DNA from: Sulfuritalea sp.
GTDB lineage: Bacteria > Pseudomonadota > Gammaproteobacteria > Burkholderiales > Rhodocyclaceae
Assembly (NCBI GenBank): GCA_030651305.1
Contig: JAUSCI010000051.1
Location: 1-64,000, forward strand
Direction: 5' to 3'
Length of the DNA: 64,000 nt
Part shown: positions 34,624 through 64,000 of the stretch, piece by piece
Numbering within the stretch: the first letter of the stretch is position 1
Layout: each line of letters opens with the position of its first letter
The notes under the pieces: model-generated
The model's input: the letters and a program-made list of their open reading frames with translations, nothing else
The model's database searches: none
Told to the model about the DNA's origin: nothing
Program-made: the position numbers and the translations under genes

Positions 34624-34691
34624 TGCATGACGATTTTGCTCCGCACCATGCCGACGAAAGCCGAATGCTGACAAGAGGACAAGGAAAATAA
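34623..34691 (+). CDS. Possible 22-aa coupled small ORF
   Basis: The FemAB-like stop overlaps an ATG (TGATG) that opens a 22-codon His/Asp-rich frame. Its stop in turn overlaps the ATG of the next small frame (TAATG). No homology was recognised. Two consecutive stop-start overlaps in a 150-nt gap suggest translational coupling, but frames this short also occur by chance. Confidence 0.2.
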   Translation: MHDDFAPHHADESRMLTRGQGK

Positions 34692-35565: not shown

Positions 35566-35616
35566 CTGCTATAAATGGTATTTTTGAGCGAGCGATTCAA
35601 AAATTCTTGTCCCCAA

Positions 35617-36645
35617 ATGAATGTAGCAATTCGAACGGACGCCACGCCGCAGATCGGCACGGGCCATGTCATGCGCTGCTTGACTTTGGCCGATGTGCTC
35701 TCGACCAAAGGCGTCGCAGTCTCCTTTCTTTGCTGCGAACTGCCGCTGCACCTGGAAGAACTCATCACCAGCAAGGGTCACAAGTTCATGCGCATGGATG
35801 CCGCGCGGGACGATGCTGAAGAAACACGCATGCTGCTCAAGAGCCTGCCCGTCGTCGATTGGCTTGTCGTCGACCACTACGGACTGGACGCGGGCTGGGA
35901 GACGGCTGTGCGCCCCGCGGTCAAGGGCATCGTGGTCATCGACGATTTGGCCAACCGGTCTCACGATTGCGACGTACTGCTCGACTCGACCTTCGGCGAA
36001 GATGGCTGCCGGTATCGGGGCCTCATCCCGGCGACGTGCCGTAAGCTTTTTGGTGCCACCTATGTGCTCCTGCGTCCCCAATTTGCAGAAGCCCGAAAGC
36101 GCCGATTGCTCAGCCCCAACGATGGCGAGCTTGTCGCCCATGTTTTTTTCGGCGGCTCTGACCTGCGTGGGTACACGTCACGCTTTGCGCAAGCGCTGGC
36201 GTCCCGGTTGCCTCACCTGCGGCAGGAGATTGCCGTCGGCGCGCTGTATCCGGACACAGATGGCCTCGGTCGGCTTCAACGTGAGTTTCCAGGGCGAATC
36301 GTCTGGCAGAGAGAAGTCGACGATATGGCCGCGCACATGAGTCGATGTTCGGTCGCTCTCGGCGCTCCGGGCATCGCGACCTGGGAGCGCGCCTGCCTCG
36401 GTCTTCCTTCAGCCTATCTTGCTACCCACCACAATCAGCGGCCTATACTTCAAGCGCTCGAAAAAAGAGGCTTGTGCCGCTTTCTCGGAGATGCCGACCT
36501 CATCACCGACGACGCATTCATCGATGGCGTTCGTGAATTTCTGGCCGACACCCGCGGTCTGGCTGGCATGCGCGAAATCGGTTTGTCGGCAATAGACGGA
36601 AACGGCGCCGAACGAGTCGCTCACAGCCTGTTGGGGACCGAATGA
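35617..36645 (+). CDS. pseG: UDP-2,4-diacylamino-trideoxyaltropyranose hydrolase (PseG)
   Basis: PseG removes UDP from the bis-acylamino sugar intermediate before condensation with PEP. The 342-aa protein starts at ATG 35617 with the PseG pattern AIRTDATPQIGTGHVMRCLTLA, whose His is the proposed catalytic residue. It also has VVDHYGLDAGWE, IDDLANRSHDCDVLLD and APGIATWERACLGLPS. An upstream in-frame start at 35575 adds 14 residues that do not fit the family. It is a core member of the pse set. Confidence 0.9.
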   Translation: MNVAIRTDATPQIGTGHVMRCLTLADVLSTKGVAVSFLCCELPLHLEELITSKGHKFMRMDAARDDAEETRMLLKSLPVVDWLVVDHYGLDAGWETAVRPAVKGIVVIDDLANRSHDCDVLLDSTFGEDGCRYRGLIPATCRKLFGATYVLLRPQFAEARKRRLLSPNDGELVAHVFFGGSDLRGYTSRFAQALASRLPHLRQEIAVGALYPDTDGLGRLQREFPGRIVWQREVDDMAAHMSRCSVALGAPGIATWERACLGLPSAYLATHHNQRPILQALEKRGLCRFLGDADLITDDAFIDGVREFLADTRGLAGMREIGLSAIDGNGAERVAHSLLGTE

Positions 36646-36676
36646 CGCGCCCCATATGGATAGAGGACAATTGAAC

Positions 36677-37498
36677 ATGGTAACAGTCGGCTATATCGGG
36701 AATCTCATGCAAGTGGCGGAATACTTGTTTCATGAGAAAGATCTCTCAGTCGCCGGCGTCATTTGCGAAGCAGGAAAGCTGAGCGACGATCTCCTGACGT
36801 TTTCGGCGGTGAGGAATATCCCGCTTTACGAAGTTGGTGGGCCGGAGGATTTGATCAACGCCGCTGGAAGGATTCAGGCCGACTTCTTCGTGATGTGCGC
36901 TTTCGGAATAAAGATACCGCAAGAAATGATCGAGAAAATGGATACATACAATATTCATCCAAGCAGTCTCCCCGACTACCGGGGGAGACATCCCACATTC
37001 TGGGCAACCGTTCGCGACGAAAAATCGATGGGAATAACGCTGCACAAGGTGGCCGCGAAGATCGATGCCGGAGAAATCATAACCCAGCGGTCATGCCCTT
37101 ATTATCTCTGGATGACCGAACAGGATATGTTCGATGAGTTGATCAAAAAGGTGCCGGAACTGCTCGGCGACCTTCAGGCTTATTTGAAAGGAATGCTGGA
37201 AAGCAGATCAAATTCTGGTGGCAGCTATTTTAAGCCGGTGCTGGAGAGCGACTTCACGATCAATATCGATAAAGATTCGCCCGCGGAAATGGTCAATAAG
37301 GTTCGGGCCCAGAAGCGCTTCAAAGGCGCCAAGTTGCAGCTCGACGGGAAAACCTTGTGGCTTAAGAAAGTCAGGCTCACGCGGCCCCAGCCCGTGCAGC
37401 TCACGCGAGGCAAATCTTACGAAAGCGGCGATGGCCTGCTTTGCGTTTCTTACAACGAGTATCTCTCTTTGAAGCTTATCGAATATGCAGAAGAATAA
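36677..37498 (+). CDS. Fmt-fold N-formyltransferase, likely sugar-amine formylation
   Basis: A 273-aa protein with the methionyl-tRNA formyltransferase catalytic pattern NIHPSSLPDYRG (Asn-x-His) and a later Asp in AKIDAGEI, plus a short C-terminal domain (SPAEMVNKVRAQ). Sugar N-formyltransferases using N10-formyl-THF share this layout. The ATG at 36677 is preceded by AGAGGA. No PseH acetyltransferase is seen, so this enzyme may formylate the C-4 amine of the PseC product, giving a 7-N-formyl pseudaminic acid. It overlaps pseI by 14 nt. Confidence 0.85.
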   Translation: MVTVGYIGNLMQVAEYLFHEKDLSVAGVICEAGKLSDDLLTFSAVRNIPLYEVGGPEDLINAAGRIQADFFVMCAFGIKIPQEMIEKMDTYNIHPSSLPDYRGRHPTFWATVRDEKSMGITLHKVAAKIDAGEIITQRSCPYYLWMTEQDMFDELIKKVPELLGDLQAYLKGMLESRSNSGGSYFKPVLESDFTINIDKDSPAEMVNKVRAQKRFKGAKLQLDGKTLWLKKVRLTRPQPVQLTRGKSYESGDGLLCVSYNEYLSLKLIEYAEE

Positions 37499-38522
37499 AA
37501 CCGCTACTCCTGTAAAACCTTCCGTCGAAATCATCGCCGAGATCGGCAGCAACCATAACCGTGATCTCGGTCTGATCAGCAAGATGGTGACAGCCGCGGC
37601 CAACGCCGGCGCACATGCCGCGAAATTTCAGACGTTTCGGGCGGAAACACTCTACTCGAAGAATACGCCCGTTGCCGCCTATCTCAAGGACACCGATTTC
37701 GTCCGGGGAAAATCGACGACTGAATTTATCCGGGAACTGGAGCTTCCCCGGGAATGGTATCCCGAGGTCAGGAAAATGGTTCTCGGCGCGGGTCTGGAGT
37801 TTTTGTCCACGCCCTTTGGGCTTGAAGAGCTCGAATTTCTGATTGCTCAAGGAATCCGCCGCATCAAGATCGGCAGCAGCGAACTCACGAATTATCCGCT
37901 TCTGGAGGCCGCCGGCGCCGCGAAGCTGCCCGTCATCCTTTCCACCGGGATGTCCAACCTGGGAGACATCGAAAAGGCACTTGCCGCCGTTCGCCGCGGG
38001 GGCTCTGCGGAAGTGATTCTGTTGCACTGCCTGGTTGCCTATCCGTCGCTACCTGAAGAATACAATCTCAAGGCAATCCTGACGCTCAAGCAGGCCTTCG
38101 GCCTCGCGGTGGGCATCTCCGATCACACTCTCGGCACGCTCATCCCCGTCTTGTCAGTCGCCTTGGGCGCCTCGATGATCGAGAAGCATGTGACGCTTGA
38201 TCGGGGGCTTCCCGGTCCCGACCATAAGCACGCCATGACGATGCCCGAATTCGCGGCGATGTGCGCGGAGGTCCGCCTCGCGGAGCAAGCCTTGGGGGAT
38301 GGAATAAAACGGGTGATGCCGTCGGAGGTGCCGCTGTACAACTATAGATCAGGTCTGATCGTGAAGCGCCTCGTCCGTGAGGGGCACGAGATCGCACGCG
38401 AAGATCTCGAGGTGAAGCGCCCCTGTTTTGGCATCCATCCCGAATTCATGGAGATCGTCGTCGGACGGAAAGCGCGCGCCACCCTCGAACCCGACGCCAT
38501 CCTCACCTGGGACATGGTCTGA
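37485..38522 (+). CDS. pseI: Pseudaminic acid synthase (NeuB family)
   Basis: PseI condenses the free bis-acylamino hexose with phosphoenolpyruvate to form the nonulosonic acid. The 345-aa protein has a NeuB barrel (IIAEIGSNHN, AAKFQTF, STPFGLEELEFL, STGMSNLGDIEKAL, GISDHTLG, IEKHVTLDR) followed by an antifreeze-like SAF domain (RLVREGHEIAREDLEVKRP). PseF and PseG neighbours favour the pseudaminic assignment over NeuB or LegI. Confidence 0.9.
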   Translation: MQKNKTATPVKPSVEIIAEIGSNHNRDLGLISKMVTAAANAGAHAAKFQTFRAETLYSKNTPVAAYLKDTDFVRGKSTTEFIRELELPREWYPEVRKMVLGAGLEFLSTPFGLEELEFLIAQGIRRIKIGSSELTNYPLLEAAGAAKLPVILSTGMSNLGDIEKALAAVRRGGSAEVILLHCLVAYPSLPEEYNLKAILTLKQAFGLAVGISDHTLGTLIPVLSVALGASMIEKHVTLDRGLPGPDHKHAMTMPEFAAMCAEVRLAEQALGDGIKRVMPSEVPLYNYRSGLIVKRLVREGHEIAREDLEVKRPCFGIHPEFMEIVVGRKARATLEPDAILTWDMV

Positions 38523-38531
38523 CAAGCGTCG

Positions 38532-39245
38532 ATGAAGTGCGTCATCATGCAGCCGACGTACCTTCCCTGGTCAGGATACTTCAACCTGATTTCGCAGGCC
38601 GATGTCTTCGTCTTTCTTGACGATGGCCAGTATGAGCGCTCCTCATGGCAGAATCGAAACCGTGTGCTTGTCGACGGCAAGGCGCAATGGCTTACCGTAC
38701 CGGCGCGCCGCCTGGAGCTTTCTCAGGCGTTCAACACGGTACAGGTTGACGACAAGCGCGGGTGGCGGCAGAAGCATTTCCGGCTCATCAAGCAGACCTA
38801 TGGCAAGCACCGGCATGGCAGCGAGATACTGGACGTTGTTAGTGGCATCACTGATCCTGCCGTCATCGGTCTGGTCGACTTGAACACGAAGCTTATCCTC
38901 GAATTTTCTCGGCGCCTTGATCTGACACCACGCTTCGTGCGCTCGAGCGAGATCGGCATCAGCGGCCAGCGCTCCGAGAGGCTATTGCGGATCTGCGAGC
39001 ATTTCGGCTGTGACGAGTATCTGAGCCCCAAGGGTGCGGCAGAGTACCTCGCCCGGGACAAAGTGTTCGACGATGCGCCCGTCAAATTATCGTTTCAGCA
39101 GTTTGCAGTTAATCCCTACCCCCAGAACAAAAACCCGGTCTTCGTCGAATCTCTGTCGATTGTCGATGTCGTTGCCAATCTCGGCTGGATCCGGGCCCGG
39201 GAATATATTCTGGGTCGATACTCGCCCACCCTCGAGGATATATGA
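38532..39245 (+). CDS. WbqC-family protein
   Basis: A 237-aa member of the WbqC family, common in O-antigen and nonulosonate loci, with the signature IMQPTYLPWSGYFNLI, DVFVFLDDGQYERSSWQNRN, WLTVPA and YLSPKGA. The biochemical role is not established; it is suspected to handle acylated sugar intermediates. It starts 9 nt after pseI and overlaps the next methyltransferase by 4 nt, so it belongs to the same translational unit. Confidence 0.9.
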   Translation: MKCVIMQPTYLPWSGYFNLISQADVFVFLDDGQYERSSWQNRNRVLVDGKAQWLTVPARRLELSQAFNTVQVDDKRGWRQKHFRLIKQTYGKHRHGSEILDVVSGITDPAVIGLVDLNTKLILEFSRRLDLTPRFVRSSEIGISGQRSERLLRICEHFGCDEYLSPKGAAEYLARDKVFDDAPVKLSFQQFAVNPYPQNKNPVFVESLSIVDVVANLGWIRAREYILGRYSPTLEDI

Positions 39246-44752: not shown

Positions 44753-45463
44753 ATGAACACAGCAATTGTTCTCGCAGGCGGCTTGGGTACTCGGCTGCGC
44801 AGTACAGTCCCCGATCGACCGAAACCGATGGCACCTATCAACGGACGGCCCTTCCTTGAGCATCAACTTGATTATTGGATTGCACAAGGGATCAGGCGAT
44901 TCGTTGTTTCAGTGTGCTATCGCCACCAGCAAATCATCGATCATTTCGGCAACAGCTACAACGGCGCCGATCTCGATTACGTCATCGAACAAACGCCCCT
45001 GGGTACCGGCGGCGGTCTTTTGTTAGCCGCTGACCGATTATGCAGCGATGCGCCTTTTCTGCTGTTGAATGGCGATACGTACTTTGCAGTTGACCTGAAG
45101 ACCCTGGCCGAGTTTTCTCTGGCAAATGATGCGGACTGGTGTTTCTCGCTGTTTCGTACAGATGAGGAAGGCCGGTACATGGGCATGGATATCACAGCAC
45201 AAGGAAAAATTCAGTCCCTCAATTCGGGAGCTGGCCGACCTGGGCGCCTGGCAAATGGAGGGGCTTATCTGGTTAACCCTCGCGCTCTTGGCGGCAAATA
45301 TTCCAGTGGTGACAGGGTTTCGTTGGAGGACGATATTTTTCCAGCGGCTATGGCTTCCGGTCAGCGTTTGTTCGCCATGGAGTTCGCGGGCACCTTCATT
45401 GACATAGGTGTGCCCGACGACTACCGTCGCGCCTCGGCGTTATTGGCAGGACACAGCAAATAG
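44753..45463 (+). CDS. hddC: HddC-like sugar-1-phosphate guanylyltransferase
   Basis: A 236-aa nucleotidyltransferase with IVLAGGLGTRLRSTVPDRPKP, PFLEHQLDYW, LLLNGDTYFAVD and GTFIDIGVPDDYRRA, typical of D-glycero-alpha-D-manno-heptose-1-phosphate guanylyltransferase and related enzymes. A kinase of the matching HddA type is at 57197, so a GDP-heptose pathway is likely. A hexose-1-phosphate substrate is the alternative. Confidence 0.78.
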   Translation: MNTAIVLAGGLGTRLRSTVPDRPKPMAPINGRPFLEHQLDYWIAQGIRRFVVSVCYRHQQIIDHFGNSYNGADLDYVIEQTPLGTGGGLLLAADRLCSDAPFLLLNGDTYFAVDLKTLAEFSLANDADWCFSLFRTDEEGRYMGMDITAQGKIQSLNSGAGRPGRLANGGAYLVNPRALGGKYSSGDRVSLEDDIFPAAMASGQRLFAMEFAGTFIDIGVPDDYRRASALLAGHSK

Positions 45464-45500: not shown

Positions 45501-46439
45501 ATGAGTTACAACATCCTCGTCACAGGTGGTGGCGGTTATCTCGGTTCCACGATGGTTCCGGAACTACTCAGTGCGGGCCACAAGGTGACGGTGCTCGACA
45601 ACTTCATGTATGGCCAGAATAGTTTGGCGCATGTCTGCCACGATCAGAATTTCAAGGTAGTACGCGCCGACATTCGCCAGGAAAATGTCATGCTGCCGTT
45701 GATGAAGAAGGCAGACGTTATCATTCCACTTGCCGCTTACGTGGGTGCGCCGTTATGCGCGAAAGATCCGATTGGTGCCTCGACGGTCAATCACGATGCA
45801 ATAATCATGATGCTCAAGAACCTGAGCAAGGAACAGTTGGTTCTCATGCCGACTACGAACAGCGCTTATGGAACCGGGGATGAGAACAATTTCTGCACGG
45901 AAGAGTCGCCTCTCCGCCCGATTTCCCAATACGCAATTGAAAAACTCGAAATTGAGATGGCGGTTATGCAGCACGCCAATGCCATCAGCTTTCGCCTGGC
46001 TACCGTATTCGGCATGTCACCGCGAATGCGCATAGACCTGCTCGTAAATGACTTTACTTATCGCGCCGTTTATGACCGCTTTGTGGTTCTATTCGAGCCG
46101 CATTTCAAGCGCAACTATGTCCATGTTCGCGATGTCGCCCGTGTTTTCATGCATGGAATTGCGTGTTTTGACAAAATGAAGGGACAGATCTACAACGTAG
46201 GTCTGTCCAATGCAAACATTTCAAAAATGGAGCTGTGTCAAGAAATTCAGAAGCAAATTCCCGATTTCACTTTTCCGGAAGCCGAGGTAGGCAAGGACCC
46301 GGATCAGCGTAACTACATCGTCTCGAATGCCAAGATTGAAACCACAGGATTTAATCCCATTCATTCACTCGAACTGGGTATCGCGGATTTGATCAAGGGC
46401 TTTACCATGATCAAGAATACTCGTTATGGGAATGTTTGA
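45501..46439 (+). CDS. NAD-dependent epimerase/dehydratase (extended SDR)
   Basis: A 312-aa SDR with ILVTGGGGYLGSTMV, LDNFMYGQNSLAHV, IIPLAAYVGAPLC, NSAYGTG, catalytic YAIEKLE and RNYVHVRDVARVF. It resembles sugar epimerases/reductases of surface-polysaccharide loci but has no specific family signature that I recognise. It directly follows hddC, so a GDP-heptose derivative is a plausible substrate. Confidence 0.8.
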   Translation: MSYNILVTGGGGYLGSTMVPELLSAGHKVTVLDNFMYGQNSLAHVCHDQNFKVVRADIRQENVMLPLMKKADVIIPLAAYVGAPLCAKDPIGASTVNHDAIIMMLKNLSKEQLVLMPTTNSAYGTGDENNFCTEESPLRPISQYAIEKLEIEMAVMQHANAISFRLATVFGMSPRMRIDLLVNDFTYRAVYDRFVVLFEPHFKRNYVHVRDVARVFMHGIACFDKMKGQIYNVGLSNANISKMELCQEIQKQIPDFTFPEAEVGKDPDQRNYIVSNAKIETTGFNPIHSLELGIADLIKGFTMIKNTRYGNV

Positions 46440-49830: not shown

Positions 49831-50619
49831 ATGGACACTGGACTCTCGAAGCGCGTAGCACTTGTTAACGGCGCAAGCAAAGGTATCGGCAAGGCGATTG
49901 CCATGGGCCTTTCCAAAGAGGGCGCGTCGGTTTGCCTCGTGGCTCGCAACAAGACGATGCTCGCAGCCGCGGCAGCGGAGATCAGCGAAGCCACGGGCGG
50001 CAAGGTGGTGTTTATGGTCGCCGACGTCGCTGAGCCGGATGCCGCCAAAAGATGCGTCGACTTCGTCCGTAAGACGTTTGGCCGAGTCGACATCCTCATC
50101 AACAATGCCGGGGGACCCGCCTTCGGAACCTTGATGAACATCAGCGAGACCGATTGGGACAATGCCCTGCAGTTGTCACTCCGCAGCGCCATCCGATTCA
50201 CAAAGGAAGTGATTCCGGGAATGCTCGAGCATCAGTGGGGCCGGATCGTCAATGTTTCGTCTACCGTCGCCAAAGAGCCAGGTCCGAACATGATTCTGTC
50301 GGCGACCGCACGCGCCGGACTCGCGGCGTTTTCCAAAGCGGTTTCGACCGAGTATGCGCCGGCCGGCATCACCGTTAATACGGTCTGTCCCGGCGGGGTC
50401 TTGACCGATCGCCTCAAGAGCCTGCTGGAGGCGCGCTCCAAAGCCGAGGGCAAGCCCTACGATGAGCTTCTCGAACAGAGTCAGAAAAGCATTCCGATCG
50501 GACGTTTCGCTTCCCCAGAGGAATTTGCGGAGACCGTGGTCTTCCTTTGTTCGGAGCCTGCACGTTACGTCACCGGTACGTATTTGTCGGTTGACGGCGG
50601 ACTGACCAAAGGGATGTGA
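49831..50619 (+). CDS. SDR oxidoreductase with atypical active site
   Basis: A 262-aa classical SDR by fold: NGASKGIGKAIA (NAD(P) binding), ILINNAGGPAFG and NVSSTVAK (catalytic Ser). The usual YxxxK is replaced by LSATARAGLAAF, as in a subgroup of 3-oxoacyl-reductase-like SDRs whose activity is uncertain. The C-terminus (PIGRFASPEEFAETVVFL, VDGGLTKGM) is standard. It overlaps the kinase gene, suggesting a small HD - SDR - APH operon. Confidence 0.82.
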   Translation: MDTGLSKRVALVNGASKGIGKAIAMGLSKEGASVCLVARNKTMLAAAAAEISEATGGKVVFMVADVAEPDAAKRCVDFVRKTFGRVDILINNAGGPAFGTLMNISETDWDNALQLSLRSAIRFTKEVIPGMLEHQWGRIVNVSSTVAKEPGPNMILSATARAGLAAFSKAVSTEYAPAGITVNTVCPGGVLTDRLKSLLEARSKAEGKPYDELLEQSQKSIPIGRFASPEEFAETVVFLCSEPARYVTGTYLSVDGGLTKGM

Positions 50620-51822: not shown

Positions 51823-52827
51823 ATGAACATTGTCGGCACAGACATCAAGCGGGTACTGATCACTGGGATCAGTGGTTCTGGCGGAAGCTATCTGGCTGAA
51901 TACATCGTTCGACACCATCCTGGCGTGGAAGTCCATGGCATGGCCCGTTGGCATAGCACAAGCACTACGGATAACCTGAGTGGTATTCGTTCCCGCGTGA
52001 CTGTTCATGAGTGCGACTTGATGGATTTCAGTTCCCTGCTTGCTACGTTGAAGGCAAGTCGGCCAGATGTCATCTTTCATCTTGCTGCGCACGCCAATGT
52101 ACGCGCCTCATTTCAAACGCCGCTAAGCGTATTGAATAACAACATCATGGGTACAGCAAATTTGTTTGAAGCAATTCGTGCGGCAGAACTAAATCCCATA
52201 TTTCAGTTGTGCAGCACGTCGGAAGTCTATGGACAAGTCGGGCCGGAGGACGTACCCATTCGCGAAGAGACGCCAATGTGCCCATCGAGCCCCTACGCTG
52301 TCTCCAAAGTAGCCCAGGACTTGCTCGGCTACACCTATTTTGTCGCGTACAAAATGCCCGTCATTCGTACGCGCATGTTTGCTTACTTGAACCCCCGTCG
52401 TGCGGACCTGTTTGCCACTTCCTTTGCACGACAGGTGGCACGAATTGAGCTCGGACTGCAAAAGGAACTGGTTCACGGCAATCTTGATTCAGTGCGAACC
52501 ATTATTGACGTGCGTGACGCAATGCGGGCTTATTGGGATGCTGCACTGCATTGCTTGCCCGGCGAGGCCTACAACATTGGCGGTAAAACTACGATACGAG
52601 TTGGTGATTTTCTCGATCTTCTCAAATCCTTAGCCACCAAACCCATACTTTCACGCGAAGATCCCGGATTGCTCCGGCCTGCCGATGTGACCTTGCAAAT
52701 TCCATCAACAGAAAAATTTGAAAAGGCGACGGGGTGGCAGCCGCAATACAAGTTCGAGGAAAGCGTGGCCTTCCTCCTTGATCATTGGCGAATTGAAGTT
52801 TCCAAAGAAATTACCAAGACAAATTGA
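51823..52827 (+). CDS. GDP-sugar 4,6-dehydratase-like SDR (GMD/RMD family)
   Basis: A 334-aa extended SDR of the GDP-mannose 4,6-dehydratase/reductase group: LITGISGSGGSYLAEYIV, FHLAAHANVRASF, CSTSEVYGQVG, catalytic YAVSKVAQD, and a C-terminus with ARIELGLQKELVHGNLDSVR as in Gmd. It is clearly different from gmd at 23022. The next genes (E1-type and ColD-like) fit a GDP-4-keto-6-deoxy sugar as its product. A heptose version (DmhA-like) is possible given hddA and hddC nearby. It could also be a 4-reductase. Confidence 0.78.
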   Translation: MNIVGTDIKRVLITGISGSGGSYLAEYIVRHHPGVEVHGMARWHSTSTTDNLSGIRSRVTVHECDLMDFSSLLATLKASRPDVIFHLAAHANVRASFQTPLSVLNNNIMGTANLFEAIRAAELNPIFQLCSTSEVYGQVGPEDVPIREETPMCPSSPYAVSKVAQDLLGYTYFVAYKMPVIRTRMFAYLNPRRADLFATSFARQVARIELGLQKELVHGNLDSVRTIIDVRDAMRAYWDAALHCLPGEAYNIGGKTTIRVGDFLDLLKSLATKPILSREDPGLLRPADVTLQIPSTEKFEKATGWQPQYKFEESVAFLLDHWRIEVSKEITKTN

Positions 52828-52831
52828 TTCC

Positions 52832-54856
52832 GTGAATATTGAAAATACCTACCGTTCGCTATATCTCATCCGTCGCGCAGAAGAGGAAGTCGTTCGCCTT
52901 TATCCCACTGACAAGATAAAAAGCCCTGTACATCTGTCCATTGGGCAGGAAGCCGTATCCGTTGGCGTATGTGAAGCATTGGATGCTGGCGACATCGTAT
53001 TTGGCACTTACCGCAGCCACGCCCTCTATCTCGCCAAGACGGGTGACTTGAGGGGCTTCTTCGCAGAGCTGTATGGCAAGGCCACCGGCTGTTGCAAGGG
53101 CAAGGGAGGGTCAATGCACCTCGCTAACGTCTCGCAAGGCATGATGGGCACATCTGCGGTTGTTGCCACCACCATTCCACAGGCAGTCGGCTACGCTTAT
53201 GCGATAAAACAGCGCGGTGAGAAAACGGTAGTAGCTGTATTTATGGGTGACGGCGCTACCGAGGAAGGGGTCTTCCACGAGAGCCTGAATTTCGCCGCAA
53301 TCAAAAATCTGCCCATCATTTTCATTTGCGAAAATAATTTATACGCTATCCACACGCATCAGCATAAACGCCAGCACCTGGCCGAGATCGGTGGCATGGT
53401 GCGTGCGCATGGCATCCCGGCCGAGCGCATAGAAAATAACGACATTGCCGCAATTCGTGCGCGAGTGACGAGCGCCGTGGCTGACATCCGCGCAGGTCTA
53501 GGTGGGCCGGTTTTTATTGAATGCATGACCTCCCGCTGGAAAGAACACGTTGGGCCGGGGGATGATTTCAGCCTTGGTTATCGCAGCAGTGGTGAGGTCC
53601 AGAAATGGAAAGACAACGATGAAATGAAAGTCATCGGCCAAAGAATTTCCATTGAATGCCGCACAAGGATTGAGGCTGATGTTGAAAAGGAAATTCAGGC
53701 AGCCATTCAGTTCGCCGAAGAAAGTCCTTTCCCCAATGTCGCAGAGCTTTACACAGAGGTATTCAAGGAAAATACCGACCCAAAATTGAAGTCGCCAACG
53801 CCGGCGACAGGCGAGCGTGAAATTGGATTTGTAGACGCCATACAGGAGGCATTGGACCAGGAGATGGGTCGCGATAAATCCGTGATCGTATTCGGTCTCG
53901 ACGTGGATGACCCGAAGGCAATTCTCGGAACGACGCGCGACCTGCCGCAAAAATACGGCGCCGACCGCGTGTTTGGTACTCCGCTCGCCGAGGATGCGAT
54001 GACTGGCGCGGCTATTGGCATGGCGCTCGCTGGCTTGCGGCCGGTGCATATTCACATTCGCATGGACTTTTTGGCGTTGGCCATGAATCAATTGATCAAC
54101 ATCGCCGCGAAGAGCCGTTACACTTTTGGTGGCCAGGTTTCCGTACCGCTTGTGGTCCGCGCAATGATCGGGCGCAGTTGGGGGCAGGGCGCGCAACATT
54201 CTCAAGCCTTGCACTCGTTTTTCATGCACGTACCCGGATTGAAAGTTGTTGCCCCCTCCAATCCATACGATGCAAAAGGGTGCTTGATTGCCGCCATCCG
54301 TGACGATAATCCCGTTATCTACGTCGAGCATCGACTGGTGCATTATCAAAAAGGACCGGTTCCCGCAGAAGCCTATGAAGTGCTTCCCGGCAAGGCGCGC
54401 GTCACCGCTTCAGGCAAGGACGTAACGCTGGTGGGCATCTCGTATATGCAAATTGAATGCATTCGAGCGCGCCGTTACCTTGAGGCTGTAGATATTCATG
54501 CTGAAGTCATTGATCCGATCTGGTTGAGCCCGCTCGATCTGGAAACTATTTTCACATCCGTTCGAAAGACACGCCGGCTGGTTATCGTTGATAACGGCTG
54601 GACGACTTGCGGCGCAGCAGCGGAAATCGCCGCCCAAGTGGCGCAATATTTTGAGGGCAATGCTGACATTCGCATTCGACGGATGGGCTTCGAGCCCGTC
54701 ACCTGCCCAACGTCACCATCGCTCGAAGCGGCGTTTTATCCCAACCCCCGCAACATCGCTTCCATGGCCCACAAGATTGTTTCAGGAGATAAGGCCGACT
54801 GGTTTCCAGAGGAACGCCATGATTTGAAAGCCTATGAATTCAAGGGGCCATTTTGA
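52832..54856 (+). CDS. Fused alpha/beta thiamine-diphosphate E1 enzyme (2-oxoacid dehydrogenase-like)
   Basis: A 674-aa fusion of E1-alpha (about 1-330) and E1-beta (about 345-670). The ThDP motif is GDGATEEGVFHES followed by ICENN. The beta half has VFGTPLAEDAMTGAAIG and GAQHSQALHSFFMHVPGLKV. No E2 or E3 gene accompanies it, so classical oxidative decarboxylation is unlikely. Comparable E1 pairs in avilamycin synthesis add a two-carbon unit to a keto-sugar. GTG start at 52832, 4 nt after the GMD-like gene; an in-frame upstream extension is not protein-like. Confidence 0.82.
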   Translation: MNIENTYRSLYLIRRAEEEVVRLYPTDKIKSPVHLSIGQEAVSVGVCEALDAGDIVFGTYRSHALYLAKTGDLRGFFAELYGKATGCCKGKGGSMHLANVSQGMMGTSAVVATTIPQAVGYAYAIKQRGEKTVVAVFMGDGATEEGVFHESLNFAAIKNLPIIFICENNLYAIHTHQHKRQHLAEIGGMVRAHGIPAERIENNDIAAIRARVTSAVADIRAGLGGPVFIECMTSRWKEHVGPGDDFSLGYRSSGEVQKWKDNDEMKVIGQRISIECRTRIEADVEKEIQAAIQFAEESPFPNVAELYTEVFKENTDPKLKSPTPATGEREIGFVDAIQEALDQEMGRDKSVIVFGLDVDDPKAILGTTRDLPQKYGADRVFGTPLAEDAMTGAAIGMALAGLRPVHIHIRMDFLALAMNQLINIAAKSRYTFGGQVSVPLVVRAMIGRSWGQGAQHSQALHSFFMHVPGLKVVAPSNPYDAKGCLIAAIRDDNPVIYVEHRLVHYQKGPVPAEAYEVLPGKARVTASGKDVTLVGISYMQIECIRARRYLEAVDIHAEVIDPIWLSPLDLETIFTSVRKTRRLVIVDNGWTTCGAAAEIAAQVAQYFEGNADIRIRRMGFEPVTCPTSPSLEAAFYPNPRNIASMAHKIVSGDKADWFPEERHDLKAYEFKGPF

Positions 54857-54910
54857 ACAGAAAAATGTACAGCGCATTTTCCTACCTAATATTGGTCTGG
54901 TGAGAAAACC

Positions 54911-56080
54911 ATGAAATTCCCACTGATGCGCAACAATATTCTGCGCGAAGATCTGGACGCAGTCATTGAGTATTTGAAACAGGACGACCCGATCCTTACC
55001 CATGGTGCCCAGGTACGCGCCTTTGAAGCCGAATGGTCCGAATGGCTGGGCGTAAAGTACAGTGCGTTCGTCAATTCCGGTGCATCAGCCAATTTGCTGA
55101 CGATGGCTATTCTCAAGATTCGCCACCCGGAAGGCGGTGAAGTCATTACTCCGCCACTGGCATGGGTTTCAGACGTCGCATCGGTACTGCAAAACGGGTT
55201 CAAACCCGTGTTTGCAGATATCGATCCACGTACTCTGGCGATGGATCCAGTTCAGATACTGGCAAAAATTACTGACAAAACGCGGGCGGTATTTCTCACG
55301 CACGTGCAGGGTTTCGATGGGCTGACCGACGATCTGATTGACGAGCTGCAACGCCGCAATATTCCGCTAATCGAAGATGTCTGCGAATCGCATGGCGCAA
55401 CACACAACGGCAAGAGACTGGGTAGCCATGGGTGGATATCGAATTTTTCCTACTACTATGCTCACCACATGAGCACCATCGAAGGTGGCATGGTCTGCAC
55501 CAATGACCCTGAGGTCTATCAGCAGGTTCGGATGCTGCGCTCCCATGGCATGGTTCGAGAAGCCAGTGATCCTGCCGTGCGCGCCTCGTATCAGGAGGCC
55601 AATCCAGAGTTGAACCCGGACTTCATCTTTGCCTTTCCCGCCTACAACACCCGCAACACCGAGATTGGCGGGATCATGGGGCGCAGCCAGCTCAAACGAC
55701 TGGATCAAATCGTAAAGCGCCGGACTGAAAACCTGCACCGCTTCTTGAAGCAAATCGATTCGTCAAGATATCGTACGGACTTCAGGCTGGAAGGCTCCAG
55801 CAACTATGCTTTCAACCTGATTTTGAAGAAACCGGATGATGACCTGGCCCAGCGCCTCATGCAAAAAATGCGGGAATGCGGTGTCGAGTTCCGAAGAGGC
55901 AGCGCGGGTGGTGGCAATCAGATTCGCCAGCCCTATCTGAAGGGTATCGTGCCGGACGGACATCATCGCGAGTTTCCTGAAACGGAGCACGTTCATTTCT
56001 ACGGCTTCTATATTGGTAACTTCCCCGACTTGACGAGTGAGGAAGTGGACGAGATCTGCGCAATTTTGAATGCGGTGTAG
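54911..56080 (+). CDS. ColD-like PLP-dependent 3-dehydratase (DegT family)
   Basis: A 389-aa DegT-fold protein. The Schiff-base Lys position is His: residues 184-193 are AHHMSTIEGG, with H185 aligning to the usual Lys. The PLP Asp is kept in IEDVCESHGA. Lys-to-His is the diagnostic change of ColD (GDP-4-keto-6-deoxymannose 3-dehydratase) and of CDP-hexulose E1, which remove the 3-OH instead of transaminating. It therefore likely makes a 3,6-dideoxy-4-keto sugar from the GMD-like product. The preceding E1-type enzyme could then act at C-4. Confidence 0.85.
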   Translation: MKFPLMRNNILREDLDAVIEYLKQDDPILTHGAQVRAFEAEWSEWLGVKYSAFVNSGASANLLTMAILKIRHPEGGEVITPPLAWVSDVASVLQNGFKPVFADIDPRTLAMDPVQILAKITDKTRAVFLTHVQGFDGLTDDLIDELQRRNIPLIEDVCESHGATHNGKRLGSHGWISNFSYYYAHHMSTIEGGMVCTNDPEVYQQVRMLRSHGMVREASDPAVRASYQEANPELNPDFIFAFPAYNTRNTEIGGIMGRSQLKRLDQIVKRRTENLHRFLKQIDSSRYRTDFRLEGSSNYAFNLILKKPDDDLAQRLMQKMRECGVEFRRGSAGGGNQIRQPYLKGIVPDGHHREFPETEHVHFYGFYIGNFPDLTSEEVDEICAILNAV

Positions 56081-56141
56081 GGCAGCTAATAGTTGGCAAT
56101 GAATTTGCCTGATGGATCCTCAAGACAAGACTAGACGAAAT

Positions 56142-56858
56142 ATGAAAACAACCCTTTTGGTTATGACGCTCAATGAAGTCAATGGCGTGAAGGTAATCAT
56201 GCCGCGAATCGACAGGACTTGGGTGGATCAGATTATTGTGGTAGATGGCGGTTCAACGGATGGCACCATCGAGTGGGCGAAAGAAAACGGCTACGAGCTC
56301 TACGTGCAGAAGCAGCGCGGGTTTCGACATGCCTATACCGAGGTCTGGCCACAGGTGACGGGTGACGTTGTCATCACCTTCAGTCCCGATGGAAATTCAG
56401 TGCCCGAATTAATTCCCGATCTGATTGAAAAAATGAAGGACGGCAACGACATGGTCATTGCCTCTCGTTATCTGGGCGATGCCAAGAGCGACGATGACGA
56501 CATTGTCACTGCTTTTGGAAACTGGTTGTTTACACACACGGTAAACTTTCTTCATGGTGGCCATTACACCGACGTAATGGTGATCTATCGAGCTTACCGA
56601 AAGAACATGGCTTACGAACTTGGCCTGGATCGTGAGGATGCCCACGCATTGCCTGAAAAATTGTTTGGCACCAATATCAGCTGGGAGCCGTTATTGTCGG
56701 TCAGAGCGGCGAAGGCCAAGCTGCGAATAGCGGAAATCCCTGGTGACGAGCCTGCGAGAATTGGCGGGGAGCGCAAGTTGCAGGTGCTGCGTTGGGGGGC
56801 TGCCTTCTATTTCCAGTTTATTCGGGAATTATGGTTTTGGAGGCCGGCAAACAAGTGA
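56142..56858 (+). CDS. Family 2 glycosyltransferase
   Basis: A 238-aa GT-A enzyme of the dolichyl-phosphate-mannose-synthase-like type: LLVMTLNEVNGVKVIMPRI, IIVVDGGSTDGT, ITFSPDGNS (DxD-like) and VIASRYLGDAKSDDDD. It lacks the C-terminal membrane helices of DPM1-type flippase-coupled enzymes. The ATG at 56142 gives the standard GT2 start; 56112 adds ten residues. It may transfer the sugar made by the preceding three genes. Confidence 0.82.
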   Translation: MKTTLLVMTLNEVNGVKVIMPRIDRTWVDQIIVVDGGSTDGTIEWAKENGYELYVQKQRGFRHAYTEVWPQVTGDVVITFSPDGNSVPELIPDLIEKMKDGNDMVIASRYLGDAKSDDDDIVTAFGNWLFTHTVNFLHGGHYTDVMVIYRAYRKNMAYELGLDREDAHALPEKLFGTNISWEPLLSVRAAKAKLRIAEIPGDEPARIGGERKLQVLRWGAAFYFQFIRELWFWRPANK

Positions 56859-57196
56859 ATTGTGAATCTTTGACTCGAAGATAGCGTCATAAATTAATCG
56901 AACATGGCCGTTATTGCCAACATCGCACAGTTCTACCTGCTGCACTGCGAATAGAAGCTGGGGCCTAAACTGATTAATTTGAACGAGCTATGTCCGCATT
57001 TCATACGAAACTCCGTCCCTATCCACCGGGTAAACTAGCGCAGCGGATGTTCTAAGATGCCGTGATGGCGCTTGGATGCAGTATTTTTTCTGCATGGCTA
57101 ACCCGAGTCGGCTTAGCCATGAATTTGGCGAATTTGAAAAATCCCGAAGACATGCCTGGCTTCCACGCTAACCGAATAAATTCTGGGTAATTGAGT
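56859..57196. other. 338-nt intergenic region with two adjacent hairpins
   Basis: The longest gap in the last 20 kb. It holds ATGCAG-(8 nt, T-rich)-CTGCAT at 57076-57095 and, directly after, a near-perfect 23-nt inverted repeat at 57096-57118 (GGCTAACCCGA / TCGGCTTAGCC with one mismatch). No T-tract follows, so neither looks like a standard terminator. A 41-codon frame at 57065-57190 runs through both arms and is probably not coding. Confidence 0.5.
57096..57118. repeat. Near-perfect inverted repeat
   Basis: GGCTAACCCGA pairs with TCGGCTTAGCC around a central G, with 10 of 11 pairs matching. It lies 78 nt before the hddA-like gene and abuts a second hairpin. It could be a protein-binding site or an RNA leader structure. 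Confidence 0.5.
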
Positions 57197-58192
57197 ATGA
57201 TCATCACGCGAACCCCGTTCAGAATCTCTTTTTTCGGTGGCGGAACCGACTATCCAGGGTGGTACAGAAATCATGGCGGCGCGGTATTGGCGACCACCAT
57301 CGACAAATACTGTTTCATTACATGCCGCCGTTTGCCACCGTTTTTTGAGCACAAGCATCGCATTGTTTACTCCCACATTGAGAATGTGCGTCATATCGAT
57401 GAAATCAAGCATCCTGCAGTGCGCGCAGTATTCAATTGGGCAAATGTGGTTGACGGGCTGGAGATCCACCATGACGGGGATCTGCCGGCACGTTCCGGCT
57501 TGGGCTCCAGTTCAGCCTTTACCGTTGGCTTGACGCATGCGCTGTATGGCCTTGGTGGCCAAATGGCCACCAAGGAAGCCCTTGCAAAGGATGCTATTCA
57601 TATTGAACAAGATCTCATCGGCGAGAACGTCGGCTCGCAGGATCAGGTGTCCGCAGCTTATGGCGGATTCAACCGCATTGAATTTCACCGCGATGACTCT
57701 TTTGATGTCGCACCGATCATCCTTCCCGGGTCCAGGCGCGAAGAGCTTCGTGACCACCTGATGCTCTGCTTCACCGGGTTTTCTCGCATCGCCGACGAAA
57801 TTGCAAAATCCAAAATAGAAAATCTGAAAAATCGTGAAACAGAGCTTAAACGTATGAGAGAAATGGTCGATGAAGCAATTTCTATTCTGGGCAATAGTGG
57901 CGTCAGTATTGCCGAGTTTGGCAAACTGCTTGATCTGAGCTGGAAATACAAGCGCAGCCTGTCCGACCGGGTTTCAACCCCCGCAATCGACCAGATTTAC
58001 AGTGAAGCCCTGAGTGCAGGCGCAATTGGCGGCAAGATTCTTGGCGCCGGCGGTGGCGGATTCATGCTGCTGTTCGCGAAACCCGAAAGGCACGCTGCAA
58101 TTCGGGAACGCCTTAACAATCTCGTGCATGTCTCTTTCGATTTTGATGATTCAGGTAGCCGCGTCGTGCTCTATCAGCCCAACGGCCTGTGA
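57197..58192 (+). CDS. hddA: GHMP kinase, D-glycero-D-manno-heptose-7-phosphate kinase-like
   Basis: A 331-aa GHMP kinase starting TRTPFRISFFGGGTDYPGWY, the HddA/fucokinase-group pattern, with the ATP motif ARSGLGSSSAFTVG and C-terminal GGKILGAGGGGFMLL. HddA phosphorylates heptose 7-phosphate at C-1 on the way to GDP-heptose, and the hddC-like gene is at 44753. No gmhA or gmhB was seen nearby; these may come from the core heptose pathway. A TTG at 57191 is an alternative start. Confidence 0.82.
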   Translation: MIITRTPFRISFFGGGTDYPGWYRNHGGAVLATTIDKYCFITCRRLPPFFEHKHRIVYSHIENVRHIDEIKHPAVRAVFNWANVVDGLEIHHDGDLPARSGLGSSSAFTVGLTHALYGLGGQMATKEALAKDAIHIEQDLIGENVGSQDQVSAAYGGFNRIEFHRDDSFDVAPIILPGSRREELRDHLMLCFTGFSRIADEIAKSKIENLKNRETELKRMREMVDEAISILGNSGVSIAEFGKLLDLSWKYKRSLSDRVSTPAIDQIYSEALSAGAIGGKILGAGGGGFMLLFAKPERHAAIRERLNNLVHVSFDFDDSGSRVVLYQPNGL

Positions 58193-61092: not shown

Positions 61093-62106
61093 ATGTTTAA
61101 AGCATTCAAGGCGTTGGTAATGTCGGCGCTTGCCCGACGGACAAAGCGCGTTGACCGGAAGAATTCGGTGGATATTCATCGGCTGCTAGATGGCGAGGCA
61201 ATCCGGATGATAGACGTCGGCGCGTCCGGAGGCATATTGCCACGCTGGAATCCATATCAGGCTGACATCGCTTTCGTGGGACTGGAGCCGGACAGCAGAT
61301 CATTCAGGCAACTTCAGGTTTCAGAAGACGCGAAGCAGTTCAACAGTTACAAGCTGATCCCCTGGGGGGCGTGGAATACGGAAGGAAAGATCAATATCTC
61401 GTTCACCCGGAAGCCAATGTGTTCTTCGCACTTTCAGCCGAATACCGCATTCTTGTCGCGATTTCAGAATGCTGAACGATTTGAAGTTGTCGGATCTGGC
61501 GAGGTGGAGTGTCAAACGCTTGATAGTTTGCAACCGGACCTTGGCGATGGTGTCGACTTCATCAAACTTGATCTCGAGGGAGGCGAATTGGCGGTTTTGC
61601 AGGGGGCGAAGAGTGTTTTATGCACTTGTCTCGGCCTCCACGTGGAGGTATGTTTTCAGCATTTGAGAGTTGGTCAGCCGCTATTTGGCGATATCACCGC
61701 TTTTCTCGTCAATCAAGGCATGGAGTTTGTTGATTTTGTCACGATGATGCGCTGGGAGCGTGACCACTATAGAGAAATTGGGCAAGCGGTTTTTGCTGAC
61801 GCCTTGTATCTGCGATCTCCGGAAGGCGTAATAGAAATGATTGGAAGCGGTGCTCTCGCAAAGAGTAGAGCGACGCGTTACCTGGCAATCCTGGCGATTT
61901 ATGACCGGGTCGATTTGGCCGTCATATTTCTGGAGTTGGCGAAGGCTGCGGGGGTATTTACCGACAGCGTCTATTTGTCGCAGGCCCAGGCGGTGATGGC
62001 CAGAAAGGCGGCCTTAATGGACAAACGGGTACGCTTTCTTAACCGGTTAAGCTTTGCCTATGCGCAGTGGTCGAATCCAAATAGCGCACTTCATTACATC
62101 TATTGA
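61093..62106 (+). CDS. FkbM-family methyltransferase with C-terminal extension
   Basis: A 337-aa protein. The FkbM part (about 1-215) has MIDVGASGGILPRWNPY, FVGLEPDSRSF and DFIKLDLEGGELAVLQGA. The remaining 120 residues form an additional helical region not typical of the family. Its last bases overlap the next frame (TTGA). It resembles the FkbM methyltransferases of O-antigen loci. Confidence 0.85.
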   Translation: MFKAFKALVMSALARRTKRVDRKNSVDIHRLLDGEAIRMIDVGASGGILPRWNPYQADIAFVGLEPDSRSFRQLQVSEDAKQFNSYKLIPWGAWNTEGKINISFTRKPMCSSHFQPNTAFLSRFQNAERFEVVGSGEVECQTLDSLQPDLGDGVDFIKLDLEGGELAVLQGAKSVLCTCLGLHVEVCFQHLRVGQPLFGDITAFLVNQGMEFVDFVTMMRWERDHYREIGQAVFADALYLRSPEGVIEMIGSGALAKSRATRYLAILAIYDRVDLAVIFLELAKAAGVFTDSVYLSQAQAVMARKAALMDKRVRFLNRLSFAYAQWSNPNSALHYIY

Positions 62107-63263
62107 AGCCGGATGATCGCGAACAATTATTTTTGTGTAACTCGTTTGGGGGCAATGTCTTGACCGTACGTCCTCGCAAGCCGCTGCTGAATCCCAATCT
62201 CATTCGACCGGACTGGCAGTCCGCCATCCCGCGCTCGCCCGATTCTCTATGGCTGGACAAGAACGAGAATCTGGATCCCGGTTTGCAATTACTTACCGCC
62301 CGCATCCTGCGCGAACTCGATCCGATGCTTCTGGCTACTTATCCGGAATGCGGCGAACTATATCGCAAGCTAGGCCGCTGGCTTGGAGTGCCGGCTGAGG
62401 CATTGATCCTGACACCCGGCAGCGACGGTGCGATTCGCATGACCTTCGAAGCCTTTGTCGACGAAGGCGCTTCAGTGATGCATACGGCGCCGACTTTCGC
62501 CATGTACCCGGTTTACTGTCAGATGTTCGGGGCGCAATCATCTCTTGTGACTTATGAGCGCGGCGAGCAAGGACCAAGTCTGACAACCGAGCGCATTCTG
62601 GCGCAACTCGACCTCGTCAAGCCCAGGCTTTTTTGTCTGCCGAATCCGGACAGCCCCACTGGCACAGTGTTTTCAGAGCTTGAATTGCGCGCCATTATTG
62701 AACAATGTGCGCGACTGGATACGGTCGCCCTGATCGATGAGGCCTACCATCCGTTTTACCAGCCAACCTGTGTTCCCTGGACTCGGGAATTTCGACATCT
62801 GATCGTTGCACGTACGTTTGCCAAGGCGTGGGGGTTGGCCGGCCTGCGCATGGGCTACGCTGTCGGGCACCCTGACACCATTCGTTATTTTCATAAACTG
62901 AGACCGATGTACGAGGTCAGCACGGTTGGTGTCGCGTTCATGGAGCGCATGCTTGATCACGTCGATGCAATGACTGCTTCGGTCGAGCGATTGAATGACG
63001 GGAAGCGCTGGTTTGCCGGCCAGATGGAGGCGCTGGGATTCAACGTTCTGCCGACCCGGGGAAATTTCCAGCACGTCGCATTCGGTTCATGCGCCGATGT
63101 CGTTCATCGTGCGCTGGAAGGCATGGTGCTCTATCGCAAGGATTTCAATGACGAGTGCCTTAGGGGCTATAGCCGATTTTCGGTTACCACTGTTGAAAGA
63201 TTCGGGCCCATCGTGCAGGCGATCCGCTCGGCTATAACTGATTCTGTGAAAGACAGGAAATGA
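62103..63263 (+). CDS. Class I/II PLP aminotransferase, HisC-like
   Basis: A 386-aa fold-type I enzyme: LWLDKNENLDPG (the HisC-like start), YPECGELYRKLGRWLGV, LTPGSDGAIRMTFE, PNPDSPTGTVF, LIDEAYHPF and the Schiff-base loop VARTFAKAWGLAGLRMGY. It could transaminate a sugar-linked or amino-acid-like precursor; histidinol phosphate itself is unlikely in this setting. TTG start at 62103; another TTG at 62160 nearer the domain start is possible. It overlaps the oxidoreductase gene. Confidence 0.82.
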   Translation: MKPDDREQLFLCNSFGGNVLTVRPRKPLLNPNLIRPDWQSAIPRSPDSLWLDKNENLDPGLQLLTARILRELDPMLLATYPECGELYRKLGRWLGVPAEALILTPGSDGAIRMTFEAFVDEGASVMHTAPTFAMYPVYCQMFGAQSSLVTYERGEQGPSLTTERILAQLDLVKPRLFCLPNPDSPTGTVFSELELRAIIEQCARLDTVALIDEAYHPFYQPTCVPWTREFRHLIVARTFAKAWGLAGLRMGYAVGHPDTIRYFHKLRPMYEVSTVGVAFMERMLDHVDAMTASVERLNDGKRWFAGQMEALGFNVLPTRGNFQHVAFGSCADVVHRALEGMVLYRKDFNDECLRGYSRFSVTTVERFGPIVQAIRSAITDSVKDRK

Positions 63264-64000
63264 ATGAAGAGTTAGCAAAGATCGCAATTATCGGGTGCGG
63301 GCGTGTGTCGGGACACCACTGCCGTTCTGTCATGGAAACGGCAGGTGCCGAACTGATTGCGGTGTGTGATCTTGAAATCGCCAAGGCCCATGCCTATGAG
63401 GAGCAGTTTGGTGCCAAGGCTTTCACCGATTATCGAAAGATGCTTGTCGCTCATCCGGAAATCAATACGGTTGCAATCGTTACCCCATCAGGCATGCATT
63501 TCGAGCACGGCCTCGAGATCATCGAAAAGTTTCGAAAGAACCTGATTGTCGAAAAGCCGACGTTCATGAGACCATCGCAGATGGAACAGGCGTACGCAAC
63601 GGCCTCAAAGTATGGATTGAACTTGTTTCCGGTATTTCAGAACCGCCACAATCTGGCGGTAAGGCGGGTCAAGCAGGGCCTCGACTCAGGAGAGTTGGGC
63701 CGAGTGCGCATTGTCTCGGTTCGCGTTCGCTGGTGTAGGCCTCAACGCTACTATGACCTGGCGCCATGGCGAGGCACTTTCGCGATGGACGGAGGCTGCT
63801 TGACCAATCAGGGAGTTCACCACATTGACCTGATGCGACATTTTGGTGGAGAAGTTGCGCGAGTGTGTGCGTCGATGTCGACGCTTGGCGCCGACATCGA
63901 GGTGGAAGATGCGGCAGTTGGCTCGGTTTCGTTCAACAGCGGGGCGCTGGGAAGCGTCGAGGTTACGACCGCGGCGCGACCGATTGACTATGAGGCCAGT
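63260..64000 (+). CDS. Gfo/Idh/MocA-family oxidoreductase (C-terminus beyond window)
   Basis: 247 codons of an NAD(P)-dependent sugar oxidoreductase: KIAIIGCGRVSGHH (Rossmann motif), AVCDLEIAKA, VAIVTPSGMHFEHG, the catalytic VEKPTFM Lys and GGCLTNQGVHHIDLMRHFGG with the active-site His. The ATG overlaps the aminotransferase stop (ATGA), so the pair probably act in sequence (oxidation then amination, as in amino-sugar pathways). Cut by the window edge. Confidence 0.88.
   Translation, partial: MNEELAKIAIIGCGRVSGHHCRSVMETAGAELIAVCDLEIAKAHAYEEQFGAKAFTDYRKMLVAHPEINTVAIVTPSGMHFEHGLEIIEKFRKNLIVEKPTFMRPSQMEQAYATASKYGLNLFPVFQNRHNLAVRRVKQGLDSGELGRVRIVSVRVRWCRPQRYYDLAPWRGTFAMDGGCLTNQGVHHIDLMRHFGGEVARVCASMSTLGADIEVEDAAVGSVSFNSGALGSVEVTTAARPIDYEAS

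Follow-up and report, generated by a model that had tools for sequence, protein, structure and literature searches.

Branching of keto sugars by thiamine diphosphate (ThDP)-dependent enzymes has been described for the CDP-hexoses of lipopolysaccharides and for the sugars of antibiotics, and ketone-accepting members occur in three ThDP superfamilies, i.e., the decarboxylases (YerE), the alpha-KADH2/E1 enzymes, and the transketolases (TKs) (PMC12247030). According to that 2025 review, enzymes of the E1 and TK types serve mainly specialised metabolites; neither "GDP" nor "heptose" occurs in its text. Here, we describe three adjacent genes (P0001, P0002, and P0003) in a 64,000-nucleotide stretch of Sulfuritalea sp. 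DNA (the window) that encode a GMD-like short-chain dehydrogenase/reductase (SDR), a fused E1-type ThDP enzyme, and a ColD-like 3-dehydratase. This triad probably forms the branch-introducing section of a GDP-heptose pathway that serves a surface polysaccharide. The original prediction for this DNA, a route to a GDP-linked 3,6-dideoxy sugar with a two-carbon branch, was largely supported.

The closest described systems each share a part of the arrangement. YerE and ErwE (yersiniose and erwiniose) use ThDP to attach an acyl group to a nucleotide sugar of the 3,6-dideoxy-4-keto type in Gram-negative surface glycans, as proposed here (PMC12247030). However, they act on a CDP-hexose (CDP-3,6-dideoxy-4-keto-glucose) and belong to the decarboxylase superfamily, whereas the sugar here would be GDP linked and probably a heptose, and the enzyme is of the E1 type; the likeness extends to one locus of the P0003 family (L172), which has an acetolactate-synthase-type enzyme. 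Split TKs of miharamycin and amipurimycin clusters are likewise proposed to branch a keto sugar, but the 13 sequences concerned are all from Streptomyces and their role is unproven according to the review (PMC12247030), whereas the split TK genes of the present family adjoin a 3-dehydratase gene in several phyla. AviB1/B2, Pau11/Pau12, and KbDH, which are alpha-KADH2 enzymes of Gram-positive antibiotic clusters, are homologous to E1 alpha/beta and have been proposed to attach a two-carbon branch to a keto sugar; of these, KbDH has been assayed in vitro, the substrates being pyruvate and ketones (PMC12247030, PMC4753412). In contrast, P0002 is a fused chain encoded in a polysaccharide locus and would act on a GDP-linked sugar, the comparison being one of descriptions and not of sequences. 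The alpha-KADH2 antibiotic sugars are TDP linked. P0002 has the traits of the alpha-KADH2 group in that it combines E1 alpha and beta domains, ThDP-binding and catalytic residues, and nucleotide-sugar neighbours.

The colitose pathway, made up of GMD, ColD, and ColC, resembles the triad in that a GMD-type enzyme is followed by a ColD-type 3-dehydratase on a GDP sugar, but it handles a hexose and continues with an epimerase/reductase. The GDP-heptose pathways of Campylobacter jejuni share HddA, HddC, GmhA, a 4,6-dehydratase, Cj1427, and a pyridoxal phosphate (PLP)-dependent C3-dehydratase. Their enzymes give GDP-3,6-dideoxy-4-keto-heptose and, in vitro, also GDP-3-deoxy-4-keto-heptose; the 4-ketone is then reduced, and the accessible parts of the two reports mention no ThDP enzyme (PMC10440746, PMC10680097). 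The most likely chemistry here, ThDP-dependent C2 branching of a deoxygenated GDP-heptose, is a combination for which searches of the open-licence literature gave no description. A 2024 survey by Krug et al. is said to have covered such clusters and may list some of these genes.

The three genes and their proposed reactions

P0001, P0002, and P0003 lie head to tail, with the GTG start of P0002 4 bases past the stop of P0001 (Table 1), and their coordinates and domains agree with what had been predicted. Because the same neighbours recur across dozens of genomes, the grouping is not due to chance.

Table 1. Genes of the window that bear on the proposed pathway (PMP, pyridoxamine phosphate)
Feature	Coordinates	Strand	Description
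P0001	51823-52827	+	334 aa; GMD-like SDR, most likely GDP-heptose 4,6-dehydratase
P0002	52832-54856	+	674 aa; GTG start; fused E1 alpha/beta ThDP enzyme, proposed acyl-branching enzyme
P0003	54911-56080	+	389 aa; ColD-like PLP/PMP 3-dehydratase, His185 replacing Lys
GT2 glycosyltransferase	56112-56858	+	Pfam; recurrent in cluster family
HddA-like GHMP kinase (heptose 7-phosphate kinase family)	57191-58192	+	NF049969, 143 bits (below cutoff of 600)
HddC-like heptose 1-phosphate guanylyltransferase	44753-45463	+	NF049965, 162 bits (below cutoff of 300)
Cj1427-like SDR, proposed 2-oxoglutarate-dependent GDP-heptose C4-dehydrogenase	45501-46439	+	PDB match
FabG-like SDR, possible branch ketoreductase (speculative)	49831-50619	+	Type in 1 of 45 full-flank loci; not conserved in family

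Sequence similarity suggests that P0001 is most likely a GDP-heptose 4,6-dehydratase. It matched Pfam GDP_Man_Dehyd (1.2e-68), and its best solved structure was 7us5, a GDP-D-glycero-D-manno-heptose 4,6-dehydratase (200 bits), which was also the top solved match of the P0001 ortholog in L173. The curated cutoff of the GDP-mannose 4,6-dehydratase model TIGR01472 (gmd) was not reached (147 bits versus 415). The motifs CSTSEVYG and NPRRAD look dehydratase-like, and both reductases compared have GPGQ; the bit scores (200 for the dehydratase versus 180 for a reductase) do not fully separate the two readings. Relatives of P0001 at 1e-60 were found in 5 of 398 other genomes of the order; one is L093, and the remaining four (42 to 47% identity) directly adjoin HddA- and HddC-like genes in all four fetched genomes. 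Orthologs inside the same type of cluster occur in L093 (56%) and L173 (70%).

P0003 belongs to the DegT family, and its four best PDB sequences were all ColD (177 to 182 bits; next, 138 bits). His185 aligns with the ColD residue altered in two entries (Asn in 3b8x, Lys in 2r0t) and was kept in all 95 loci aligned, a set that includes one or more duplicates (L091). This bears out the earlier ColD-type reading, under which P0003 would remove the C3 hydroxyl of a GDP-4-keto sugar. Plasmids searched with P0003 gave no match at 1e-60.

P0002 carries E1_dh, Transket_pyr, and Transketolase_C in a single chain, with no match at 1e-5 to the YerE-like decarboxylase domains TPP_enzyme_N/M/C. The predicted catalytic residues Glu387, His456, Asp140, and Asn168 are kept in all 13 sugar-linked E1s (i.e., P0002, L132, L153, L156, L157, L164, L168-L171, and L032-L034), and His63 is replaced by Gln in the E1 of L164. 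A midpoint-rooted FastTree tree of 35 rows placed these 13 E1s and that of L007 in one group with a support of 1.00. Fused E1s (~40% identity) from five genomes of the order (G070, G065, G016, G039, and G126) fell outside the group, and the DNA fetched around them contained no match to HddA, HddC, P0001, or P0003; thus, fusion alone is not diagnostic. Among E1s in P0003 loci, that of L132 is one chain (80% identical to P0002), those of L156, L157, L169, L170, and L171 are two chains (57 to 71%), and those of L153, L164, and L168 are more distant (38 to 48%).

A search with P0002 alone matched 27 of 399 order genomes at 1e-100, its own included. The best matches reached just 43 to 45% identity and came from five genomes of one genus and from L007. 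A closely similar HddA adjoins the E1 in all five genomes (L005, L006, L008, L015, and L016), and three of them hold a complete cluster (L032-L034) with a split E1, a ColD-clade protein (438 bits to ColD in L032), and HddA/HddC/GmhA-like genes; the loci of the other two are contig scraps. The L032 cluster also holds GmhB-like HAD and class II aldolase-like genes (15724-17420; named by eye). No match to P0002 was found in the viral contigs searched.

The original prediction had named GDP-mannose or GDP-heptose as the precursor. Judging from the gene relationships, GDP-D-glycero-D-manno-heptose is the more likely of the two: several weak signals, with HddA-, HddC-, and GmhA-like genes nearby, are joined by two stronger ones, i.e., the match of the Cj1427-like SDR and the P0001 relatives beside HddA and HddC in HddA operons. 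The sole PDB match of that SDR at 1e-18 was 6vo6/6vo8 (375 bits), which we take to be C. jejuni Cj1427. Cj1427, a GDP-heptose C4-dehydrogenase, turns 2-oxoglutarate into L-2-hydroxyglutarate (PMC10680097). The HddA-like kinase matched PDB 3k85 best and also 4n3o. A GmhA-like isomerase gene lies beyond the window on the same contig (C33; L047, 3240-3898; 34% identical to the GmhA of L084), and searches confined to the window and the next 39 kb gave no match to GmhB, LhgO, or the AKR of L093. The predicted GDP linkage is backed by the ColD-, HddC-, and GDP-heptose-type relatives.

On the basis of these similarities, GmhA-, HddA-, and HddC-like enzymes together with a GmhB would make GDP-D-glycero-D-manno-heptose. 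The 4-ketone would then arise through P0001 (4,6-dehydration) or the Cj1427-like dehydrogenase (C4 oxidation), and P0003, with PMP and glutamate, would remove the C3 hydroxyl to give GDP-3-deoxy- (or 3,6-dideoxy-) 4-keto-heptose; both compounds have in vitro precedent via a C3-dehydratase (PMC10680097, PMC10440746). If P0002 resembles YerE and the alpha-KADH2 (E1-type) enzymes of antibiotic clusters, which suggest the donor and the attacked carbon, it would decarboxylate a 2-oxoacid, most likely pyruvate, and add the acyl anion (an acetyl unit) to the C4 ketone. The expected product is a 4-C-acetyl branched nonose, which may then be reduced.

The ThDP slot in the P0003 family

A scan of GTDB species genomes revealed at least 298 relatives of P0003, the best 80 of which (60 to 88% identity) were kept as named loci. 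They carry labels from several phyla (Nitrospira, Methylomonas, Pseudomonas, Rhizobium, Planctomycetes, Verrucomicrobia, Omnitrophota, and others), single labels being uncertain because many of the loci come from metagenome-assembled genomes. Orthologs of P0003 (55 to 84%) were present in 11 of 398 other genomes of the order and in 7 of 397 other genomes of the phylum, with G264 in both samples. Since loci were chosen by similarity to P0003, the counts below describe its nearest relatives; L091 is the same record as L152.

A ThDP enzyme was found by tblastn in 71 of the 80 loci, and in 72 when L172, whose acetolactate-synthase-type enzyme was found by reading open reading frames, is included. 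The slot was filled by split TKs (38 loci), short E1-like pairs (23), E1s (9), an L91-type E1-like enzyme (1), and the acetolactate-synthase type (1); no second filler of the last type was detected in all loci searched with the L172 protein. The predicted pairing with a ThDP enzyme was constant, being seen in 45 of 45 full-flank loci (at least 7 kb upstream and 3 kb downstream of the P0003 ortholog) and, with L172, in 51 of 51 with at least 7 kb upstream. Eight loci had no ThDP match (L102, L106, L137, L148, L149, L160, L162, and L163); L102, L137, L148, and L163 have fewer than 400 bases upstream, and a remnant of 27 residues from a short-type gene survives in L102. In an unranked sample of the phylum, a TK pair was present in all five fetched loci, four of them new (L190 is the record of L098); this set leaves out G264, which is already represented by L087, and L185, a match at the end of a contig. 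As a small control, four HddA operons without P0003 (L186-L189) gave no ThDP match. Of the 69 loci with a measured distance, 52 have a ThDP gene that overlaps the P0003 ortholog or stops no more than 200 bp from it (two rows that were stop-search artefacts were not counted as near); the gene lies 0.2 to 6 kb upstream in 15 others and downstream in L151 and L173.

Companion genes in the 45 full-flank loci were counted with identity thresholds of our own: a Cj1427-like C4-dehydrogenase (44), HddA (43), HddC (41), a B12 radical-SAM enzyme (41), a GDP-fucose-synthase-like SDR (27), GmhA (18), an L-2-hydroxyglutarate-oxidase-like enzyme (7), and a P0001-type dehydratase (1). The oxidase of L084 exceeded its curated cutoff (345 versus 299), which fits recycling of L-2-hydroxyglutarate since Cj1427-type enzymes make that compound. 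Given the counts of 44 and 1, most clusters may reach the 4-ketone through oxidation, with the C6 oxygen retained. A gene of the P0001 type is present in the window, L093, and L173 as well as, or instead of, the C4-dehydrogenase. The 6-deoxy step of the original prediction is a local addition, and the E1 enzyme is the ThDP partner here but elsewhere only one of several types. A genome search for the same triad had been suggested; the pairing of a ThDP enzyme with a ColD-like protein is widespread, and the triad is one variant of a wider cluster.

The strongest argument for branching by ThDP chemistry is this replacement, i.e., the same three superfamilies that have ketone-accepting members occur in one slot beside a 3-dehydratase. 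Because the enzymes that fill the slot are distantly related, acyl-anion addition to a 3-deoxy-4-keto sugar is likely what is selected. Surface-glycan loci from several phyla thus seem to apply the same chemistry to GDP-heptose, which would be a possible biological use for GDP-3-deoxy-4-keto-heptose, and the swapping of enzymes amounts to a natural experiment on ketone-accepting ThDP enzymes.

Two of the short ThDP pairs (L083, 2726-3898; L088, 8065-9216) comprise chains of 199 to 208 and 178 residues with E1_dh and Transket_pyr and no Transketolase_C; that of L083 has GEM at the place of the GDG motif. In L091 (2045-5449) and L092 (14015-17419), the cluster is close to a large gene that by eye is flagellin-like, and for this reason the branched sugar may decorate flagellin in those organisms.

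Counterevidence and alternative roles

Several points weigh against a branching role on GDP-heptose. We know of no assay for any family member, and the TK-type partners may use another donor. Loci with at least 2 kb upstream contain a ThDP gene in 66 of 70 cases (missing in L106, L149, L160, and L162), and the order loci do so in 10 of 11, L085 having no ThDP gene in reach. The search with P0002 alone gave a mixed picture: with P0002 itself set aside, three of the top four matches (L005, L006, and L008, all from one genus) are sugar linked, and the fourth, L007, has no window homolog but the E1. The linkage of E1 to P0003 partly reflects sample choice, as the closer E1s (57 to 80%) were found only via loci picked by P0003. 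The sugar could differ, given that matches to the HddA, HddC, and gmd models fall well short of the curated cutoffs, and P0003 is only ~30% identical to ColD. The second-best structure for P0001, the GDP-4-keto-6-deoxymannose reductase 2pk3, scored 180 bits, close to the 200 bits of the dehydratase. P0001 may also serve another sugar, since a 4,6-dehydratase and a C4-dehydrogenase are encoded together in the window.

This last point leads to the alternative that survives best. It is possible, if on the unlikely side, that P0001 belongs to a separate GDP-6-deoxy-heptose branch, and that P0002 and P0003 act on the product of the C4-dehydrogenase, which keeps its C6 hydroxyl. The prevalence of the Cj1427-like gene over the P0001 type in the family and the presence of both in the window and in L093 favour such a division, but the gap between P0001 and P0002 is just 4 bases and P0001 orthologs lie within the cluster in L093 and L173.

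We consider it quite unlikely that the ThDP enzyme makes a precursor, e.g., a longer ketose phosphate or an aldehyde, rather than acting on the nucleotide sugar. Split TKs are the commonest partner (38 of 80), and L093 also has a transaldolase-like gene. However, E1, short E1-like, and acetolactate-synthase types share the slot, and to our knowledge none of these makes sedoheptulose phosphate. The short distance from the ThDP gene to its P0003 neighbour in most measured loci (52 of 69) also argues for action on the nucleotide sugar, as does the activity of YerE and ErwE on 3,6-dideoxy-4-keto sugars (PMC12247030).

It is very improbable that P0002 is the E1 of a 2-oxoacid dehydrogenase working with a lipoyl E2 and in this locus by accident, an outcome named beforehand as one that would overturn the branching role. 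Its best family models were indeed pyruvate dehydrogenase E1 alpha and beta (276 and 268 bits), but both scores are below the curated NCBIfam cutoffs (393.85 and 321), and TK and acetolactate-synthase types occupy the slot of P0002 in other genomes. As predicted, the E1 lacks E2/E3 neighbours, these families being absent among the ~30 window genes scanned. The genome encodes an AceE of its own (1523 bits; C13:22759-25401) next to an E2 (C13:21355-22044), with another E2 on C24 and the triad apart from all of these on C33, which makes a pyruvate dehydrogenase role for P0002 unlikely. P0002 had three other weak matches in this genome; by eye, two of these fall in a DXS-like gene and the third in a split transketolase. 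On contig C12 of this genome (L002, 1324-3068), a further split transketolase pair adjoins an SDR distantly like P0001.

Less credible still is that P0003 is an aminotransferase and the sugar an amino sugar, because, although the fold is DegT and many relatives are aminotransferases, the transamination Lys is replaced by His in all 95 aligned loci and the best solved relatives are ColD.

The radical-SAM gene and other neighbouring genes

Most full-flank loci encode the cobalamin radical-SAM enzyme counted above. Nearest to the L084 copy among NCBIfam models were HpnJ (99 bits) and BchE (85 bits), far below cutoff. A preprint counts HpnJ and BchE among the few cobalamin enzymes of their type whose reactions close or rearrange rings rather than transfer methyl groups (PMC13142503). 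The window and the next 39 kb gave no match to the radical-SAM protein, and none was found in this genome at 1e-15, an empty answer that alone proves little; by tblastn, the same query finds 35 to 84% matches in other loci.

Trinickia caryophylli is the producer of caryose. By its name, that sugar is a 4,8-cyclo-3,9-dideoxy-nonose (PMC9026286). It is a doubtful but testable idea that the conserved cluster, of which this genome has an incomplete version, produces such a carbocyclic nonose. GDP-heptose would be oxidised at C4 by the Cj1427-like enzyme, deoxygenated at C3 by the P0003 family, and given a 4-C-acetyl group by the ThDP enzyme, after which the radical-SAM enzyme would join C7 to the acetyl carbon. 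By our own derivation, the atoms fit: seven heptose carbons, two acetyl carbons, deoxy C3 and C9, and a retained C6 oxygen. Together with the radical-SAM gene, this fit suggests, speculatively, that the ring of the sugar is closed from a 4-C-acetyl-3-deoxy-heptose, a route to caryose-like sugars that can be tested.

The glycosyltransferase gene that follows P0003 has 65 to 84% matches in 7 of the 80 named loci. Two further GMD-like genes were noted on the contig. One (33% identical to P0001) is followed by a GDP-fucose-synthase-like gene (47% identical to that of L084) at 23022-25504 of the window, probably as an ordinary GDP-fucose-type pair; the other lies beyond the window (L048, 6392-7396; 29%) and has SREVFG where GMDs have TSE. 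An apparent nonulosonate cluster occupies 30187-39245 of the window (DegT aminotransferase, CTP transferase, formyltransferase-like, NeuB, and WbqC). From 62103 to 64000 and onward beyond the window (L047, 260-5648), genes for a class I/II aminotransferase, two Gfo/Idh-like dehydrogenases, a KdsB-like cytidylyltransferase, and the GmhA-like isomerase stand in a row with IMPase-like and hydroxyacid-dehydrogenase-like genes, most of them named by eye, and may form a separate CMP-sugar pathway. The G+C content of the window falls from ~0.65 in the first 14 kb to 0.46 to 0.56 from 40 kb on, in keeping with acquired genes.

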